The notes under the pieces: model-generated | The model's database searches: none | The model's input: only the letters and a program-made list of their open reading frames with translations | Told to the model about the DNA's origin: nothing | Position numbers and translations under genes: made by a program | Part shown: positions 19,536 through 27,243 of the stretch, piece by piece | Layout of the letters: each line of letters starts with the position of its first letter | Position numbering within the stretch: position 1 is the stretch's first letter | Origin: Chitinispirillaceae bacterium | Lineage (GTDB): Bacteria; Fibrobacterota; Chitinivibrionia; Chitinivibrionales; Chitinispirillaceae | Assembly (NCBI GenBank): GCA_016929595.1 | Contig: JAFGIN010000113.1 | Span: 1-64,000 of the forward strand | Reading direction: 5' to 3' | DNA length: 64,000 nucleotides

Positions 19536-20228
19536 TTGGATGGTAGCTCTCAAATAAAAGGTGTTCTGTTTGATCTTGATGGCACACTTTACAGGATGAA
19601 GTGGCTTATGAAGCCGCTTCTGATGTTCCGGGTTTTCCCTAACAGCCTCAGGTTGCCGAGATTTTTAAAGATCCGGGGTAAATATGCGGGTCTTGATCTT
19701 TATAACCGCAACAATCTTTTAAAATCTATCTGTGATGAACTCGCATCCATTGAGAATTGCTCGCCTGAAGAACTCCGCTCCTGGATACTGAATTCGTTTT
19801 ATCCCGGATTTATTTACACAATGAAATTCCAGAAAAATGGTCGTCCCGGTATCAACCAGACGCTTCAGGGATTACGGGATCGTAAAATCCAGCTTGCTGT
19901 GCTCAGCGACTATAACAGTGTTAAAGAACGCCTAAACAACCTGGATATCAATGCCGCTCACTTTTCGATTACTACTTCATGTGAAGCGTCAGGAGCTCTT
20001 AAACCATCTCCACGGCCTTTCCTGCAAATAGCTCAAAAATGGGGTATCTCTCCTGAGGAACTACTTGTCGTTGGAGACCGTGATGATACCGACGGCGCTG
20101 CCGCGAGGAGTGCCGGTATGAATTTTATTCAGATCTGTGAAAAAAAATCCCCTTCAAAAGAAATACTCAACTGGAATGAGCTAAGGAAGCAACTCGAGCA
20201 TCTTCAAGGTCCGCCACCAGTTCTTTAA
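19536..20228 (+). CDS. HAD-superfamily hydrolase
   Basis: 230 residues from a TTG start, two bases after the aminotransferase stop, with AAAGGG upstream. HAD motifs are complete: I FDLDGTLY, II VLSDYNS, III Lys in GALKPSPRPF, IV VGDRDDTDGAAARSAG. The cap is helical, of the phosphoglycolate phosphatase-like subfamily. It probably dephosphorylates a small metabolite, perhaps connected to the partner aminotransferase. Its last 62 bases overlap the convergent cooC gene. Confidence 0.9.
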   Translation: MDGSSQIKGVLFDLDGTLYRMKWLMKPLLMFRVFPNSLRLPRFLKIRGKYAGLDLYNRNNLLKSICDELASIENCSPEELRSWILNSFYPGFIYTMKFQKNGRPGINQTLQGLRDRKIQLAVLSDYNSVKERLNNLDINAAHFSITTSCEASGALKPSPRPFLQIAQKWGISPEELLVVGDRDDTDGAAARSAGMNFIQICEKKSPSKEILNWNELRKQLEHLQGPPPVL

Positions 20229-20973
20229 GGGTCTCTACAATATCCGGACATGTATCGAATACTGGTACAGAAGCATTCTCAGCCTTCAAAACATTTTCAT
20301 TCCAACTGATAAAATTATTAACAGTATAGTCCGGAAATGCATCCCTGATAAAGTCCTTATCATCAACCGATCTGATCTTATTCCCCACAATTCTGCAGCA
20401 AAGTCCCTGTATCTGTTTTGAAAAATCAAGAACTGATCGCGCTGCCAGTATACTTCTGTTTGACGGCTCAACGACGACAATCAAAGCATTGACACCTGAT
20501 GCAGTCCCTCTGCCGATGTGTTCTGTACCTGCAACCATATCCATTATGACAGTCTCACCTACCCGTAAAACAAGGTGACTGACAAGAGCTTTGATAACAG
20601 TATTTTCGGCACAGGCACATCCGGTACCAGGTCCTCTGGTTGCGCCCATGATAAGAAGACGTATCGCCCTGTGTGTCCCGCAATAACGGTCTGGAATATC
20701 ATCAACCCGGGGATTAAGTCTGAAGTAAGTTCCTGCAGCCTCCTCCCTGCTGTCACCAGCCCCTGTTCTCTCCCGAATCAGCTCTTTTAGCGAAATTACT
20801 GGTTGTATAGTACAGAGTACCGATTCAGGAAACCCCAGAGCCTGTCCGAATGTCGGGTTGGGATCAGCATCAATTGCATACACAGCATCACCTTTTTGAG
20901 CGAAAATATAGGAAAGAGTGGAAGCTACCATTGTTTTTCCGGCTCCACCTTTTCCAGCTACGGCTAGTTTCAC
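20167..20973 (-). CDS. cooC: CO dehydrogenase maturation ATPase CooC
   Basis: 268 residues from a GTG start with AAGGAA upstream. MinD/ParA-type P-loop ATPase with deviant Walker A GKGGAGKT near the N-terminus, DADPNP, and a CxC pair (GCACAEN) about residue 135 that in CooC binds nickel or zinc at the dimer interface. CooC supplies nickel to the C-cluster of CooS using ATP. It is the last gene of the cooF-cooS-V4R-cooC series, 22 bases after the V4R gene. Confidence 0.93.
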   Translation of the reverse strand: MKLAVAGKGGAGKTMVASTLSYIFAQKGDAVYAIDADPNPTFGQALGFPESVLCTIQPVISLKELIRERTGAGDSREEAAGTYFRLNPRVDDIPDRYCGTHRAIRLLIMGATRGPGTGCACAENTVIKALVSHLVLRVGETVIMDMVAGTEHIGRGTASGVNALIVVVEPSNRSILAARSVLDFSKQIQGLCCRIVGNKIRSVDDKDFIRDAFPDYTVNNFISWNENVLKAENASVPVFDTCPDIVETLKELVADLEDARVASLAHSS

Positions 20974-20995: not shown

Positions 20996-21505
20996 TTACA
21001 AATTTACTTCAAACATGCATGTTTTATCCCCTTTACCCCAGCACTGAACCTCTTTACACGTTACAACACCTCCGGTAAAATTCTGGACAATTCCTGCAAC
21101 TACGCCCCCTTCGAAATGACAAACGGTTTCTCCGATATTGGGGATTCCGGCGCAAGTCACACATTCATCGACCTGAAGATATACCTGACCATTATTGAAA
21201 CTTCCATCAGCAATTGAAACCAGTCCGATCCCAAGTTGTTCAAAAATGTGAACAACATCTGTCAAGTACTCATTCAGATCTGTTTTGTTTGACATTTTTG
21301 AAGAGATATTCTGACCGATGTTGTAACCAAGATTTCTTCCACCTCGGTAAATAATCGCATTAGCCCCTCTTCCGGCAATCTCTTTCATTCCTTCTAATCG
21401 TAATGCCCTGAACACGTTAACCGGTACCAATTGACCCAGTTTGTCACGACCGATAATCGGTTCCGAGGAGATCCCTATACCCTTGTGATCCTGTAATGTT
21501 TCCAT
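20996..21505 (-). CDS. V4R-domain protein in the CO dehydrogenase operon
   Basis: 169 residues; ATG with AAAGGGA upstream. About residues 30-168 form a V4R (4-vinyl reductase) domain, with the usual end pattern ETVCHFEGGVVAGIV and VQCWGKGDKTCMFEV. It carries five Cys in the last 60 residues (ECVTC, VC, TC, QC, TC), enough to hold a metal or sense redox. V4R domains are small-molecule or metal-binding modules in XylR-type regulators and in bacteriochlorophyll and archaeal proteins. The gene sits tightly between cooS and cooC (33 and 22 bases), so a role in metal delivery, sensing or assembly of CODH is plausible. That role is inference. Confidence 0.88.
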   Translation of the reverse strand: METLQDHKGIGISSEPIIGRDKLGQLVPVNVFRALRLEGMKEIAGRGANAIIYRGGRNLGYNIGQNISSKMSNKTDLNEYLTDVVHIFEQLGIGLVSIADGSFNNGQVYLQVDECVTCAGIPNIGETVCHFEGGVVAGIVQNFTGGVVTCKEVQCWGKGDKTCMFEVNL

Positions 21506-21538: not shown

Positions 21539-23485
21539 TTAATCATTCGTAAAGAGCAATTCATCCTCATCTTGTCTTCTGGAAGTAATCGTTTCCATCT
21601 CCAGGATTTTGAGATCACTAAATAATGCTGACCGCTTCTTTTCAATATGTTCTATCATGAGACATGCAGCTTTCAAAGGATCCGGTTCGACAGAAAATTT
21701 TGCGCCAACAAAACCTTCTATTTTATTAAGCAATAATTCTGCAACATTTGCACTGCCAAGTACCGGTGGAACAACACCCAATACTGTAGATACCCCCGAT
21801 CCAACAAGGTATGTTGCAATAGAAACTGCTTTCTGGCTCATCCATTCGGGAGCTCCGCCAGCTACTGGCAGATCTGAAATATCACAATTCAGTTTTTTTG
21901 CTAATGCCCCGATAAAGGTTAATATTCTGCTATTATCAACACAACTTCCCATGTGTAGCACAGGAGGAATCCCAATCTCTCTGCACAGAGATTTTAATCC
22001 ATCACCTGCAATTTCAGCCGCATCCGTTTTTAACAGCCCATCCTTTGCACACGCGATTGCATTACACCCCGTCGAAACAACAAGAATATTATTCCTGATA
22101 AGCTCTCTAACAAGAGTCAAATGTCCATGATCGTGACGGATTTTAGGATTATTACACCCGACAACACCAGCAATCCCTCTAATCTGGCCGCATTCGATCG
22201 CATTGACCAGCGGTGTAAGAGTCCCTCCAAATGCACCAATTATCGATTCTGTCGAAAAACCACCGATTGTTTCCATAGAGTGTTGCGGTATGCACACCTG
22301 TTCCCTTTTACGTCGTTTAAAATTATCTACGGCAATTTCTACTATTTTTGAGGCGGTTTCCCAGGCATTTGACTCCTTAAATTCTAAATGCATTGCGCCT
22401 GTAAAATGTGCTATTGATGACGTTGTGATAAATTGCGTATGATAGCATTTTGATAACGGTACCAGTGATGGAAGAATACACTGTACATCAACCACCATTG
22501 CTTCAACAGCCCCCGTAATAATTGCAAACTCCTGTTGAAGAAAATTACCAACTAAAGGTACTCCGTGACGTGACAAAATCTCAATACCAGAGCAACACAT
22601 CCCACAAACGTTTATTCCTTTTGCGCCGACACCTTCTGCACGTCCCAGTAACCGCCTGTCATTTGCAGCCTGTACAATCATTTCTGAAATCATCAGTTCA
22701 TGACCATGGACGATGATATTCACCATATCTTCTTTCAGAACCCCCAGATTAACTCTTGTTTTTACGGGAGTTGGCGTCCCATATATGACATCCGATAACT
22801 CTGTAGCAATCATTGACCCGGCCCACCCATCAGCCAGAGCTGTACGTATCCCCTGAAATAAAAGACTTGCTGCATCATTATCAACGCCAATATGCGTTCT
22901 GTGCATCGATTCGACAACTTCTCTATCTATACCGCGAGGTAAAAGGTTGAGACGTTTCCAAATCTCCACCCTCTTTTCTGGTGCTCTATTAAAAAAATGA
23001 AGACCTCCGTGAGCATTCTGCCTTCCAAAATCCTCAAGAAGTTTTGTACCGACTGTTACAGCTATCTTTTCTATTGAACGATTTTCAACCGGAATTCCCA
23101 TTTCAATGGCAAGATACAAAACCTTCTTACTATCCGACATATAAAATGAAGGTGCTTTTTTATTAACAATATTTAGGAACAAAATAGCGAGAGCACGACC
23201 ATGATCAGAATGAGCTGCAGTTCCAGTTGCTATCTGAGTCAAGAGATTTCTCGCAACAATCACATCTGCAGTCGCACCGCAAACTCCCGTTTGTGGTCCA
23301 TTACCAAATGGATCGATTCTGCAGGGGCCCATAGTACAATTTCTGCAGCATATTCCAAGCATTCCATAATTACATTGTGGCAATTGTTTCTGATATCGGT
23401 CCCAAACCGTTTCAATCCCTTCTTCATGCGACTTCTCCACCATCTGCAGAGTAGCATCACATACTGAGACTTTCTCATCCCTCAT
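21539..23485 (-). CDS. cooS: Anaerobic Ni-Fe carbon monoxide dehydrogenase, catalytic subunit
   Basis: 648 residues from the ATG at 23485, which has GGGAG five bases upstream; a GTG five codons earlier is possible. The N-terminal cluster Cys are present (CNYGMLGICCRNCTMGPCRI), holding the D and B [4Fe-4S] clusters. The C-cluster ligands all appear in order: His in VHGHELM, Cys in GINVCGMCC, VDVQC, GVVGCNNP, STGCNAIAC and MGSCVDN. It oxidises CO to CO2, or the reverse, in the cytoplasm, passing electrons to CooF. No acetyl-CoA synthase subunit or CO-linked hydrogenase is nearby, so this is a monofunctional CODH. Length matches the family. Confidence 0.97.
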   Translation of the reverse strand: MRDEKVSVCDATLQMVEKSHEEGIETVWDRYQKQLPQCNYGMLGICCRNCTMGPCRIDPFGNGPQTGVCGATADVIVARNLLTQIATGTAAHSDHGRALAILFLNIVNKKAPSFYMSDSKKVLYLAIEMGIPVENRSIEKIAVTVGTKLLEDFGRQNAHGGLHFFNRAPEKRVEIWKRLNLLPRGIDREVVESMHRTHIGVDNDAASLLFQGIRTALADGWAGSMIATELSDVIYGTPTPVKTRVNLGVLKEDMVNIIVHGHELMISEMIVQAANDRRLLGRAEGVGAKGINVCGMCCSGIEILSRHGVPLVGNFLQQEFAIITGAVEAMVVDVQCILPSLVPLSKCYHTQFITTSSIAHFTGAMHLEFKESNAWETASKIVEIAVDNFKRRKREQVCIPQHSMETIGGFSTESIIGAFGGTLTPLVNAIECGQIRGIAGVVGCNNPKIRHDHGHLTLVRELIRNNILVVSTGCNAIACAKDGLLKTDAAEIAGDGLKSLCREIGIPPVLHMGSCVDNSRILTFIGALAKKLNCDISDLPVAGGAPEWMSQKAVSIATYLVGSGVSTVLGVVPPVLGSANVAELLLNKIEGFVGAKFSVEPDPLKAACLMIEHIEKKRSALFSDLKILEMETITSRRQDEDELLFTND

Positions 23486-23564
23486 AATACTCCCTATCAC
23501 TTTTTCAGGTTAGATCATTGTTGCTATCTATTTGTATTTTTTTAATGAGAAAAATAAAGCACAA

Positions 23565-24113
23565 TCATTGTTTGCACTTATTATGAGTCACTCCTTTTAT
23601 TTGATTTACAGCATTTTTCTTTTTTTCTCTGAATTTTTCGTCAGCATCACAGAACAGAAGTGCTCCTGATTTACAAGCACTAACGCATGCAGGCTCAGCC
23701 CCAATTCTGATATCATTGATACATTCATCACATTTTATCGCGATAAGATGTTTACTCCCTGATTTCTGGCTCATTCCATAACCTATAACATTGAAGGGAC
23801 AAGCATTCAGGCAGCGCTTACAGCCAGTACAATATTGTTCATCAATAATGACATAACCAGTACAAAAATCACGGTAGATCGCTCCCGCAAGACACACATT
23901 TATGCACGGGGCTGGGTTGCAGTGACGGCATTTCACCGGAATGGCAGATGTACCTGCGGTATCCGTTCTGATTGTTATTCCCGAAACATGCTTTCCTGTT
24001 TCCTTAATAACAGAATATACGGATTTTGAACTCGAATGAGCTACTATACAGGCAAATTCGCATTGATGACATCCCAAACAGAGTTCTTTAATACACCGTA
24101 CCTGTTTCAACAA
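23565..24113 (-). CDS. cooF: CooF-like ferredoxin partner of CO dehydrogenase
   Basis: 182 residues from a TTG start (TTGTTG, either possible) with GGAGG upstream. Four cluster-binding Cys groups are visible: CLGCHQCEFAC, CRHCNPAPCINVC, CTGCKRCLNAC and the CDEC...CVSAC pair, as in DmsB/HycB-type proteins. CooF carries electrons from CooS to a membrane or soluble acceptor. It is the first gene of the CODH operon; a short palindrome AACATGAAATGTT lies about 55 bases upstream. Confidence 0.92.
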   Translation of the reverse strand: MLKQVRCIKELCLGCHQCEFACIVAHSSSKSVYSVIKETGKHVSGITIRTDTAGTSAIPVKCRHCNPAPCINVCLAGAIYRDFCTGYVIIDEQYCTGCKRCLNACPFNVIGYGMSQKSGSKHLIAIKCDECINDIRIGAEPACVSACKSGALLFCDADEKFREKKKNAVNQIKGVTHNKCKQ

Positions 24114-24234: not shown

Positions 24235-25185
24235 TCAGGAATATATAATTGCATTTGTTACTTTGCTGACAGGCAAAGGAATGACCTTTTTTCCCTGTGT
24301 CAGACCGGAATAAAAGACTTTCTGTCCATTGATAACCATTGGTGCAATTGTCAAAAGAAGATTGTTATTATTAACAAAGGTAATCTTGGAAAGTGTATCA
24401 AATGGTATATTATCACAGATTATCTTCCGGCAATAATGAAACAGTGCTGAAATTGCCGCAAGTTCCTCAGAATACTGACTCGATGATGCTATCACAAAAC
24501 CCATCTCATCACTGATCACTGCACCCCGATGTCCCGGTTTGGTAACATTATTTATAAGGATCCTGTTAAAAACAGTGGTTACTCCGCTGCCATCAATTTT
24601 TGATTCATAAACGAGGGGTTTCGATCCAAAATTTCCCAGAGAAATACCTGCGCTATACAGTTTTTTAACCTCTTCACGCAAATGATTATTCTGCTTTCGT
24701 AACTCTTTTTCCATCTCCAGTGATTCGTTATACTTGATTACATACTCCCTGTACCGTTCAGCCTCGACAATCTTTCTCTGTTGAATATTCACCTGAGCAG
24801 AAAGCATCTGATTTTCCTCATTTAATTTTTTTATTTGTTCGTCAAATTCTGCTTTCGTTGATTCAAATGCTGCTGCCTGAACCACCATCTCTTTATCTTT
24901 GATAGTCTGTTCCTGTAACTCGTAAATTTTTCGCTGTTGATATATTTGCAGCTTACGTAATGTTGAATATGTTTCTACCAGAGCAGTATTATTTTTTGTT
25001 AAAACATCATTTTCACTGCATTTCTTTTCAAGGGCTTTATTCAAGGAATCATTTTTTGCACGCACTTCAGCATATCGCTCAACAAGCTCATTAAACCTCT
25101 GCGATAAAAATGCATACCCTGCTATAATGCCGGATAAAAAGAAACACAATGATGCGACGCCAAAAAGTACCCAGAAAAAAGTCAT
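24235..25185 (-). CDS. Membrane-anchored coiled-coil protein with roadblock-like tail
   Basis: 316 residues. One N-terminal membrane helix (about 3-27), a long Glu/Lys/Gln-rich coiled coil (about 30-180), then a C-terminal domain (about 195-310) with RGAVISDEMGFVIASSS followed by EELAAISALF, the typical start of a roadblock/LC7 (MglB-like) fold. It probably presents a roadblock domain at the membrane. It follows the stand-alone roadblock gene by 115 bases on the same strand and may hetero-dimerise with it. No exact family is recognised; the roadblock assignment rests on my reading of the motif. It ends 122 bases before cooF. Confidence 0.78.
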   Translation of the reverse strand: MTFFWVLFGVASLCFFLSGIIAGYAFLSQRFNELVERYAEVRAKNDSLNKALEKKCSENDVLTKNNTALVETYSTLRKLQIYQQRKIYELQEQTIKDKEMVVQAAAFESTKAEFDEQIKKLNEENQMLSAQVNIQQRKIVEAERYREYVIKYNESLEMEKELRKQNNHLREEVKKLYSAGISLGNFGSKPLVYESKIDGSGVTTVFNRILINNVTKPGHRGAVISDEMGFVIASSSQYSEELAAISALFHYCRKIICDNIPFDTLSKITFVNNNNLLLTIAPMVINGQKVFYSGLTQGKKVIPLPVSKVTNAIIYS

Positions 25186-25300
25186 ATGAGAAATCCTGAA
25201 TCAGAGATAACAAACACCATAACCTAAAATATGCCAGTAATGTAGTTATGCAAATCATAAGTATAGTAGATTATGAATATGGTAAAAGTTACTTTGAAAA

Positions 25301-25669
25301 TCAAATAATCTTTCCAAGTTCAGGAAGAATTCTCTTTATCTCAAGGAATATGAGCCCTAGTTTCGCATCAGAATTTACCAGACTTACGAGAACAGTTTCA
25401 TCACTTATATTATTACATATTATGTACCCACTCTCACTTTTTACGAAAATCTGTGTCATTTTACTGTTCATCATCTCTTTTGCAATCCTCTCTCCAACAC
25501 CCAGAAGTGCCGCAGTAATTCCCCCAACAAGACCTTCGTCTATCTCTGACAAGGTTACGCTTGCAACCATAAATCCATCCATGGTAATAACAGATGCACC
25601 AAAAATGTCTGGTGAAACAGAACGGTAACGATTAAGAACTTCTTTAATTTTGTCTGACTTGTTAGTCAT
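25301..25669 (-). CDS. Roadblock/LC7-domain protein (MglB-like)
   Basis: 122 residues, almost all one roadblock/LC7 domain: an N-terminal helix, SVITMDGFMVASVTLSE, the helix GGITAALLGVGERIAKEM, then strands and a final helix. In bacteria such proteins (MglB) are dimeric regulators of Ras-like MglA GTPases, but no GTPase gene is next to it. Its ATG overlaps the stop of the pseudokinase gene (ATGA), so the two are translationally coupled. Confidence 0.9.
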   Translation of the reverse strand: MTNKSDKIKEVLNRYRSVSPDIFGASVITMDGFMVASVTLSEIDEGLVGGITAALLGVGERIAKEMMNSKMTQIFVKSESGYIICNNISDETVLVSLVNSDAKLGLIFLEIKRILPELGKII

Positions 25670-27243
25670 ACAGATATACTCTCTTTCTTCAATATTTTTG
25701 AAAATGATTCAATTATTTTATCTTTTTTTGGATACCCGTTTTTCTGCTGCAAAACAGAAAAAGAATCCGTTGTTGAAGCTTTAATCCTGTTTTTATCACC
25801 CCTTTCAAAACTTTTATTCTGCGGATGTACATTTTTTCCGGTTTCAGACGGAATTTCAATTACGTGAGTATCAATTATTGATCTGGCTTTAATAATTTTC
25901 GAAAATGCCTGAACACTTTTTTGAGGCAGAACCACTTTTACAGGTTGTAAATCGGTAAAAACATGTTTTTTTTCATTTTTCGTCACAGCATGTTGATTTG
26001 TTGCAACAGCATCGGCCTCAATAAGTCTGCCCGTTTCTGTTACTTGTTGATTATCTGGTGATTGCACCTGTAGCTTTTGAACATTTTGATCCGATATTGT
26101 TTCGATCTTAACCGTTTCGGCATGGATAGGATTTATTAACCTGCTATCTGTTTCCGGTCCATAATAATTCACTTGAGAAAGATCCGTAGAAACATTCATA
26201 TTAAGTATCTGATACTGATCAGAGATGGAATTTGTCATTTCATTTATGTTAAATTTTTCGGTCAGGAATGTTCGCAGAGAATTGTCGTTACTTTTTTGTA
26301 TACACTCCAGTGCATTTTGTACCTGAATCTGGTCTTTTACTGGTGAATGATCTGTTCTTTCCGGAAATAACACGTAGAGCAGTAAGCTTGTTATAGTTTT
26401 TTCAAATTTCACCGATGAAGCAATTGCGTAATCCAGAAGATCATGGTACACATCGGCAATCTGTTCATATTTTGCAAATTTACTCAGTCCTCTGAACCTC
26501 GTTGCACGGTCAATAATTTTCTCAATTGCGGAAGGTATGGATGGGATGAGTTTTTTTACATGTTTCAAATTCCTTGATCCACCACCTTCAAAAAATCGTA
26601 CAAACGATTTTTCCTCAACAAGCATTCGAAATAACAAAATTCCCATGGAATAGATTTCATGATGTCTTTTCACTGACGACCCCATAGCAATATCCGGGTG
26701 ATGATAGATGGTCCTTCCATTTTCGACGATCGATTCACCTGTAAACCGATACTTCAACTGATCCGCTACACCGGAGTCAATAAAACAGACATCTCCATCA
26801 AACGTAATAAAAACGTTATCCGGACAGATCGCTCCATGATACATCATCTCTTTATCTTTTTTGGAACCATAAAAGTCATGAATAAATTCCAGAGTATTAC
26901 ATAGCGATGTTATGACATGCATCACTAAAGAATGGGGGATTTTTCGATCCATGTTATCGAATCTCGACAATACCTGAGTGAGAGTGACACCCGGAACATG
27001 TCTTGTTGAGATATAATGCTTTTGAGGTTTACTGTTTGTGCATACACCGAAATCAATTATTTCCAGCGTTCCGGGATGATTAAGATGTTTTGCGGCATTG
27101 AGCCTTGCCAATGCAGTACCCTTGATATCAAGAAATGCCGTTTTTACCATCACATTGAAGGAATGAATCTCATCTGCGTATTCAGCAAGTATTACTTCTG
27201 CAACATTGTTTCTGGCAAGCGTCTTTTTGATGATGTGGCTCAT
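25666..27243 (-). CDS. Serine/threonine pseudokinase with long disordered tail
   Basis: 525 residues. Residues about 5-280 follow the PknB-type kinase fold, with Lys34 in VMVKTA where the ATP-binding lysine belongs. Catalytic residues are missing: the HRDxKxxN loop reads HGAICPDN (136-143), so the catalytic Asp is Ala138 and the loop Lys is Cys140; the helix-C Glu appears as Ala; DFG reads DSG (156-158). It should not transfer phosphate and may act as a scaffold or ligand sensor. The tail (about 290-525) is polar with no clear domain. It is coupled to the roadblock gene, and a direct-repeat box lies about 200 bases upstream. Confidence 0.85.
   Translation of the reverse strand: MSHIIKKTLARNNVAEVILAEYADEIHSFNVMVKTAFLDIKGTALARLNAAKHLNHPGTLEIIDFGVCTNSKPQKHYISTRHVPGVTLTQVLSRFDNMDRKIPHSLVMHVITSLCNTLEFIHDFYGSKKDKEMMYHGAICPDNVFITFDGDVCFIDSGVADQLKYRFTGESIVENGRTIYHHPDIAMGSSVKRHHEIYSMGILLFRMLVEEKSFVRFFEGGGSRNLKHVKKLIPSIPSAIEKIIDRATRFRGLSKFAKYEQIADVYHDLLDYAIASSVKFEKTITSLLLYVLFPERTDHSPVKDQIQVQNALECIQKSNDNSLRTFLTEKFNINEMTNSISDQYQILNMNVSTDLSQVNYYGPETDSRLINPIHAETVKIETISDQNVQKLQVQSPDNQQVTETGRLIEADAVATNQHAVTKNEKKHVFTDLQPVKVVLPQKSVQAFSKIIKARSIIDTHVIEIPSETGKNVHPQNKSFERGDKNRIKASTTDSFSVLQQKNGYPKKDKIIESFSKILKKESISV

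Follow-up and report, generated by a model that had tools for sequence, protein, structure and literature searches.

A conserved gene module that brings together a soluble roadblock protein (Rb), a membrane coiled-coil protein with a predicted roadblock domain (CC-Rb), a V4R-domain protein, and a Hanks-type kinase or pseudokinase almost certainly exists, and it is apparently both undescribed and common to several phyla. In the window, the whole 64,000-nucleotide stretch of DNA analyzed here, the module lies with genes for a nickel-dependent CO dehydrogenase (CODH). The original prediction described three neighboring minus-strand genes; these open reading frames are present and co-directional, but they make up only part of the unit, as a four-gene continuation encoding CODH proteins and the V4R protein follows it (Table 1). 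Intergenic gaps do not exceed 121 bp through all seven genes, from that of the pseudokinase (pK) to that of a CooC-like ATPase, and the pK and Rb frames share 4 bp (25666-25669), as had been noted. Rfam yielded no matches, and a scan for promoters and terminators gave counts no higher than in shuffled sequences. A chance grouping or assembly artifact was ruled out, since the set recurs in six Fibrobacterota genomes, this one included, and in other phyla.

Table 1. Genes and protein features of the module and the adjoining CODH genes in the window.
Feature	Residues	Position	Strand	Description
pK, pseudokinase		25666..27243	-	525 aa; kinase-like domain ends near residue 280 and a low-complexity tail follows
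pK C-terminal motif FSKILKKE	514-521	25681..25704	-	
pK second motif copy FSKIIKAR	447-454	25882-25905	-	
Rb, soluble roadblock protein		25301..25669	-	122 aa; PF03259 39.4 bits (cut-off 23)
CC-Rb		24235..25185	-	316 aa; hydrophobic N-terminal segment (residues 3-21), long coiled coil, predicted roadblock fold
CC-Rb predicted roadblock fold	200-306	24268-24588	-	
CooF-like 4Fe-4S electron-transfer protein		23565..24113	-	Fer4 families
CooS, Ni-CO dehydrogenase catalytic subunit		21539..23500	-	TIGR01702 686 bits (cut-off 478)
V4R-domain protein, likely sensor		20996..21505	-	PF02830 63.5 bits (cut-off 31)
CooC-like P-loop ATPase, presumably inserts Ni into CODH		20167..20973	-	PF01656 36.3 bits

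By profile, pK is a Hanks-type kinase (PF00069, 3.2e-9, 37 bits versus a cut-off of 31.7), and its closest PDB chains are those of PknB. Alignment with active kinases agreed with the claim that this PknB-fold protein lacks the catalytic Asp, loop Lys, and helix-C Glu: the HRD Asp is replaced by Ala138, the loop Lys by Cys140, and the Glu by Arg. The Gly-rich loop is also gone, leaving pK with none of the four features of a catalytically active Hanks-type kinase. Lys34, Asn143, and the DFG-type Asp156 (in a DSG motif), which the original prediction did not list, are retained. A sequencing error at the catalytic Asp was ruled out, as this residue is missing in all seven readable Fibrobacterota copies of the pK group.

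Rb belongs to PF03259 (Robl_LC7, 5.2e-10), confirming a lone roadblock protein next to pK, and its best PDB match is a Thorarchaeota roadblock protein (7f8m, 1.3e-17). It is the most conserved member of the module, with 56 to 82% identity across genera within Fibrobacterota; identity to the nearest relative is about 30% for pK and 27 to 29% for CC-Rb. The suggestion that the third gene encodes a coiled-coil protein with a roadblock-like C terminus was borne out by the hydrophobic N-terminal segment and by an AF2 model (mean pLDDT, 84.6) in which a helix runs to residue 178 and is followed by elements in the order H-E-E-H-H-E-E-E-H. The best Foldseek matches of this model are roadblock proteins (E value, 7e-6), and its matches include MglB, Asgard roadblocks, Ragulator subunits, MP1-p14, and dynein roadblocks. 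CC-Rb alone scores a sub-threshold 13.7 bits on PF03259, which places it in Robl_LC7 by fold and not by sequence. Because a profile comparison with Rb is also weak (probability, 34%), the predicted roadblock fold of its C terminus rests on the AF2 model and Foldseek.

The enzyme encoded in the window is, by sequence, a Ni-CODH (CooS); it aligns with PDB 6t7j (3e-226), and its Cys and His cluster motifs are kept. The P-loop ATPase is presumed from context to have the role of CooC, and a syntenic copy occurs in a second CODH-bearing genome (G006). Three cysteines of the V4R protein (Cys115, Cys129, and Cys163) are invariant across 14 sequences; related V4R/TRAPPC3 folds are known to bind Zn through Cys (PMC10933270). 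A V4R model (pLDDT, 69) resembles the sensor domains of PoxR, MopR, and DmpR, as well as TRAPP Bet3. On this evidence V4R is likely a sensor and the likeliest ligand sensor of the module, a role that the original prediction had suggested for the dead kinase. At one locus (L101:11010-11597), a protoglobin gene (PF11563, 6.2e-14) lies directly 3' of CC-Rb, in the slot usually held by V4R in enzyme-free loci, and may represent a sensor exchanged for V4R.

Within Fibrobacterota, where the named relatives are metagenome-assembled genomes labeled Chitinivibrionales or Fibrobacter, Rb was found in 6 of 168 genomes at an E value of ≤1e-12, each time with module partners close by, and the trio shows synteny between genomes of the phylum. 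The module is linked to CODH in three of these genomes (that of the window, G006, and G033) and to a [NiFe] hydrogenase in two (G024 and G032); this hydrogenase is group 3-like, with VhuG and VhuA as its best NCBIfam matches. The sixth genome (G003) has a module linked to a CODH-like enzyme, plus an additional predicted active kinase. There, a short 519-aa protein of the CODH/prismane family adjoins the module (L061:4357-5916); identification as a hybrid-cluster protein was ruled out, and the protein is CODH-like, with a TIGR01702 score of 311 bits that is below the cut-off of 478. Gene order in G006 is pK-Rb-CCRb-cooF-cooS-FAD oxidoreductase-V4R-cooC. Because CC-Rb and cooF overlap by 4 bp in this genome, the trio and the CODH genes there probably form one transcription unit. 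In G032 and G033 an OmpA-like protein is encoded between Rb and CC-Rb; the window has neither OmpA nor the TPR-like segment found at the end of other module kinases.

In an Rb tree, the sequences linked to CODH fall into one clade with support of 100/100. Around it is a Fibrobacterota group of moderate support (89/82), among whose members are hydrogenase-linked sequences. This nesting suggests, but does not prove, that CODH replaced hydrogenase in the module. G006 carries a second pK copy 3' of an active-type kinase and a PAS-bearing [FeFe] hydrogenase of putative sensory type, the three genes being consecutive (L033:3597-8721), and a similar kinase-hydrogenase pair is present in G033 (L068). 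A more distant second roadblock group occurs in three further loci (L063, L064, and L066, in G001, G017, and G027), consisting of a DUF4388-like protein, a weakly roadblock-like 360-aa protein, and Rb; L064 and L066 also have V4R-like and [NiFe] hydrogenase genes, and L063 and L064 have an active-type kinase.

Scanning the Rb alignment against 84,980 species genomes revealed relatives in Myxococcota, Magnetococcales, and Gammaproteobacteria (including Methylobacter luteus), with more distant ones in Chloroflexi. Two main layouts were annotated with hidden Markov models (HMMs) outside the phylum: pK-V4R-HydS-HydL-FeS-Rb-OmpA-CCRb and the enzyme-free pK-Rb-OmpA-CCRb-V4R. Four large Myxococcota genomes, one a 13.2-Mb contig, encode V4R-Rb-OmpA-CCRb with the kinase missing. 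Gammaproteobacteria, including M. luteus, have a minimal Rb-V4R pair (L105 to L107) without the kinase or other module genes. Chloroflexi relatives mostly adjoin a CTP-synthase-like gene and none of the module partners.

Within 8 kb of Rb at 25 loci, V4R was present at 21, CC-Rb at 20, and OmpA and the kinase at 15 each, with a hydrogenase at 9 and CODH at 4; no module partner or enzyme was found near Rb at any of 60 Chloroflexi control loci. Because loci were picked by Rb similarity and the control was a single phylum, these counts and those that follow show linkage and are not a formal probability. A noncircular repeat used HMMs built from Fibrobacterota proteins only. At 19 outside loci it recovered CC-Rb at 14, V4R of either type at 16, OmpA at 11, and the kinase at 10, all of which are lower bounds because several outside contigs are short; the same HMMs found partners at 0 of 60 Chloroflexi controls.

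The kinase differs between phyla. In Myxococcota modules, 9 of 10 copies retain the catalytic Asp, in HRD, HGD, or HCD motifs, versus none of the seven readable copies in Fibrobacterota. A dead kinase is therefore not what defines the module, and the pseudokinase state was probably derived in the Fibrobacterota branch. Other matched kinases of Fibrobacterota lie in different gene contexts. At one Polyangiaceae locus (L099:1642-5235), two divergent kinase genes differ in the catalytic Asp, which only one of them retains; they are possibly a kinase-pseudokinase pair. As read by eye, a TPR-like segment ends most Myxococcota kinases and three Fibrobacterota copies. The window pK and its nearest relatives instead carry F-[STA]-x-[IL]-[IL], a short motif in the tail that occurs twice each in the window and G006 proteins; a similar motif lies near the C terminus of the G006, G033, and G032 homologs. 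It could be a docking motif.

Roadblock proteins usually serve a GTPase. None is encoded in the module or at the window locus, and MglA was found within 8 kb of Rb at none of the 25 module loci, so the original prediction of a roadblock set without a GTPase holds for the locus. The suggested survey for an MglA-like GTPase elsewhere in the genome located one on contig C194 (626 aa), followed by its own MglB, which is the only other roadblock match in the genome; this MglA was identified by contig inspection, as its PF00025 scores are weak. At this locus (L043:5133-7768), the genome's only evident MglA-type GTPase has a long Gln/Pro-rich C-terminal extension and is preceded by a DUF4388-like protein, and the MglB-like protein that follows is 251 aa long. 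The other five module-bearing Fibrobacterota genomes also have MglA homologs, and distant Myxococcota Rb paralogs lie near MglA-like GTPase genes at five loci (L225, L228, L230, L231, and L234).

In the arrangement that we propose, CC-Rb would be anchored in the inner membrane, expose the coiled coil and C-terminal roadblock domain to the cytoplasm, and pair with soluble Rb, presumably as a heterodimer, to form a roadblock platform. An OmpA-like partner, presumed to bind the cell wall, would join this platform in many genomes. V4R, or protoglobin in one genome, would provide the input by sensing a small molecule, a metal, or redox state, and the kinase would be the output. The Fibrobacterota kinase, lacking catalysis, could act as a docking or allosteric subunit, perhaps still binding nucleotide, and the short motif in its tail may contact the platform. 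The module of this lineage appears to be built into the CODH operon, and because of that position it would likely serve to couple a membrane-anchored signaling complex to CO, to redox state, or to the activity of CODH-CooF. Versions without an enzyme still have V4R, Rb, OmpA, and CC-Rb, which means that the module is more than an accessory of the enzymes.

We put at about even the chance that the module is such a membrane-tethered, Ragulator-like platform, which would be recruited to CO and H2 enzymes and connect a sensor (V4R or globin) with a kinase or pseudokinase; assembly and signaling are the inferred parts of this reading. The new membrane-linked scaffold switch of the original prediction survives in part, as the conserved set is free of a GTPase and most plausibly acts as a scaffold. 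Several findings count against the platform: the module has no evident output target or transcription factor, the kinase is missing in the four Myxococcota genomes and in Gammaproteobacteria, the genome has an unlinked MglA, and CC-Rb is sub-threshold on Pfam and weak in profile comparison with Rb. A more specific version is tentative and rather unlikely to hold in full. It envisions a GTPase-independent, wall- or membrane-anchored TRAPP/Ragulator-like complex of V4R (or protoglobin) and a roadblock heterodimer, which would report CO, H2, or redox to a Hanks-type kinase that is a pseudokinase in Fibrobacterota.

Among other explanations, the strongest, though rather unlikely, is an enzyme tether: Rb and CC-Rb, together with OmpA, would keep a soluble enzyme (CODH-CooF or the hydrogenase) at the membrane so that electrons can be transferred, with signaling absent and pK a structural adaptor. 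The hydrogenase near Rb at nine loci and CODH at four, the resemblance of the hydrogenases to soluble group 3 enzymes, and the CC-Rb/cooF overlap in G006 speak for a tether, but V4R-bearing modules also occur without any enzyme, Myxococcota kinases appear from their sequences to be catalytically active, and a protoglobin occupies the place of V4R at one locus. Sensing is favored over pure tethering because of the sensor-like fold and cysteines of V4R, this protoglobin, and the PAS-bearing [FeFe] hydrogenase next to pK in G006. It is less probable still that Rb, or Rb with CC-Rb, regulates the genome's unlinked MglA and in this way links CO or redox state to cell polarity. The MglA-MglB pair on C194, the MglA homologs of the other five genomes, and the Myxococcota paralogs near MglA-like genes speak for such a connection; the MglA, however, has its own adjoining MglB, and none lies close to Rb at the module loci.

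Decay of the module in this lineage, with a drifting pseudokinase, is improbable. Fast divergence of pK and CC-Rb and loss of the TPR-like segment and OmpA from the window would fit a relic, but Rb is still 56 to 82% identical across genera, every frame is open, gene order is retained, and pK still has Lys34 and Asp156. Least credible is an anti-phage kinase of the PD-T4-6 or MAD6 kind. PADLOC models for PD-T4-6 do match pK (2e-18), yet the match is confined to the kinase domain, and a defense kinase was rejected; the protein does not classify as PD-T4-6, its catalysis is lost, its neighborhood is one of CO metabolism, and the PADLOC library has no match for Rb or V4R and only a weak one for CC-Rb.

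In a 2014 survey, 328 of 749 MglB homologs were orphan roadblocks, none of them characterized at that time (PMC4316618). The module gives one such group conserved partners (V4R or protoglobin, OmpA, CC-Rb, and a kinase or pseudokinase) and an enzymatic context in CODH and [NiFe] hydrogenase. It raises the testable questions of whether a platform of roadblock dimers can work when no GTPase takes part and how anaerobes link CO and H2 enzymes to Ser/Thr-kinase signaling. If a GTPase-independent platform is true, a group of orphan bacterial roadblock proteins would have a defined role. In the literature searched, mostly outside subscription journals, no paper was found that ties a roadblock protein to V4R and a hydrogenase or CODH.

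Compared with known systems, Rb and the CC-Rb domain share the roadblock fold of MglB from the polarity switch of Myxococcus and Thermus. In that switch an MglB-type protein and a Ras-like GTPase are encoded together, whereas the module has no linked GTPase, the genome's own MglA-MglB pair is separate, and Rb is closest in sequence, among solved structures, to Asgard roadblocks. Sensory hydrogenases (group C [FeFe] HydS and regulatory [NiFe] enzymes) provide examples of a metalloenzyme encoded with signaling proteins (PMC8163306). The second G006 pK copy, whose neighbors encode an active-type kinase and a PAS-bearing [FeFe] hydrogenase, is reminiscent of these, but the window has a CODH with its cluster motifs kept, and the module lacks a PAS domain and a histidine kinase. 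Relatives of TRAPP-type complex parts, the V4R and roadblock folds, stand side by side in these bacterial operons: V4R resembles Bet3 and is encoded with two proteins of known or predicted roadblock fold; the TRAPP core combines Bet3-type and longin subunits. The module has roadblock instead of longin domains and no Rab, and the likeness is one of folds and gene linkage.

Actinobacterial conservons (CvnA-D; AGPS) encode a kinase, a roadblock protein, and an accessory sensor in one operon (PMC13343842), a grouping that the module shares. Their components are a histidine kinase, CvnC, and a Ras-like GTPase, unlike the Hanks-type kinase or pseudokinase, V4R, and membrane coiled-coil roadblock protein found here without a GTPase; Rb is the only conservon component present, and the module is for this reason not a conservon. 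A roadblock platform held at a membrane has its precedent in Ragulator (PMC5696360), and both Ragulator/LAMTOR and the MP1-p14 scaffold are among the Foldseek matches of the CC-Rb model. In the module, the anchor and predicted roadblock domain lie in one polypeptide, a Rag-type GTPase is absent, and a Ragulator-like assembly is predicted from folds and gene linkage. On present evidence a member of neither, the module would have its closest functional analogues in Ragulator and the conservons.
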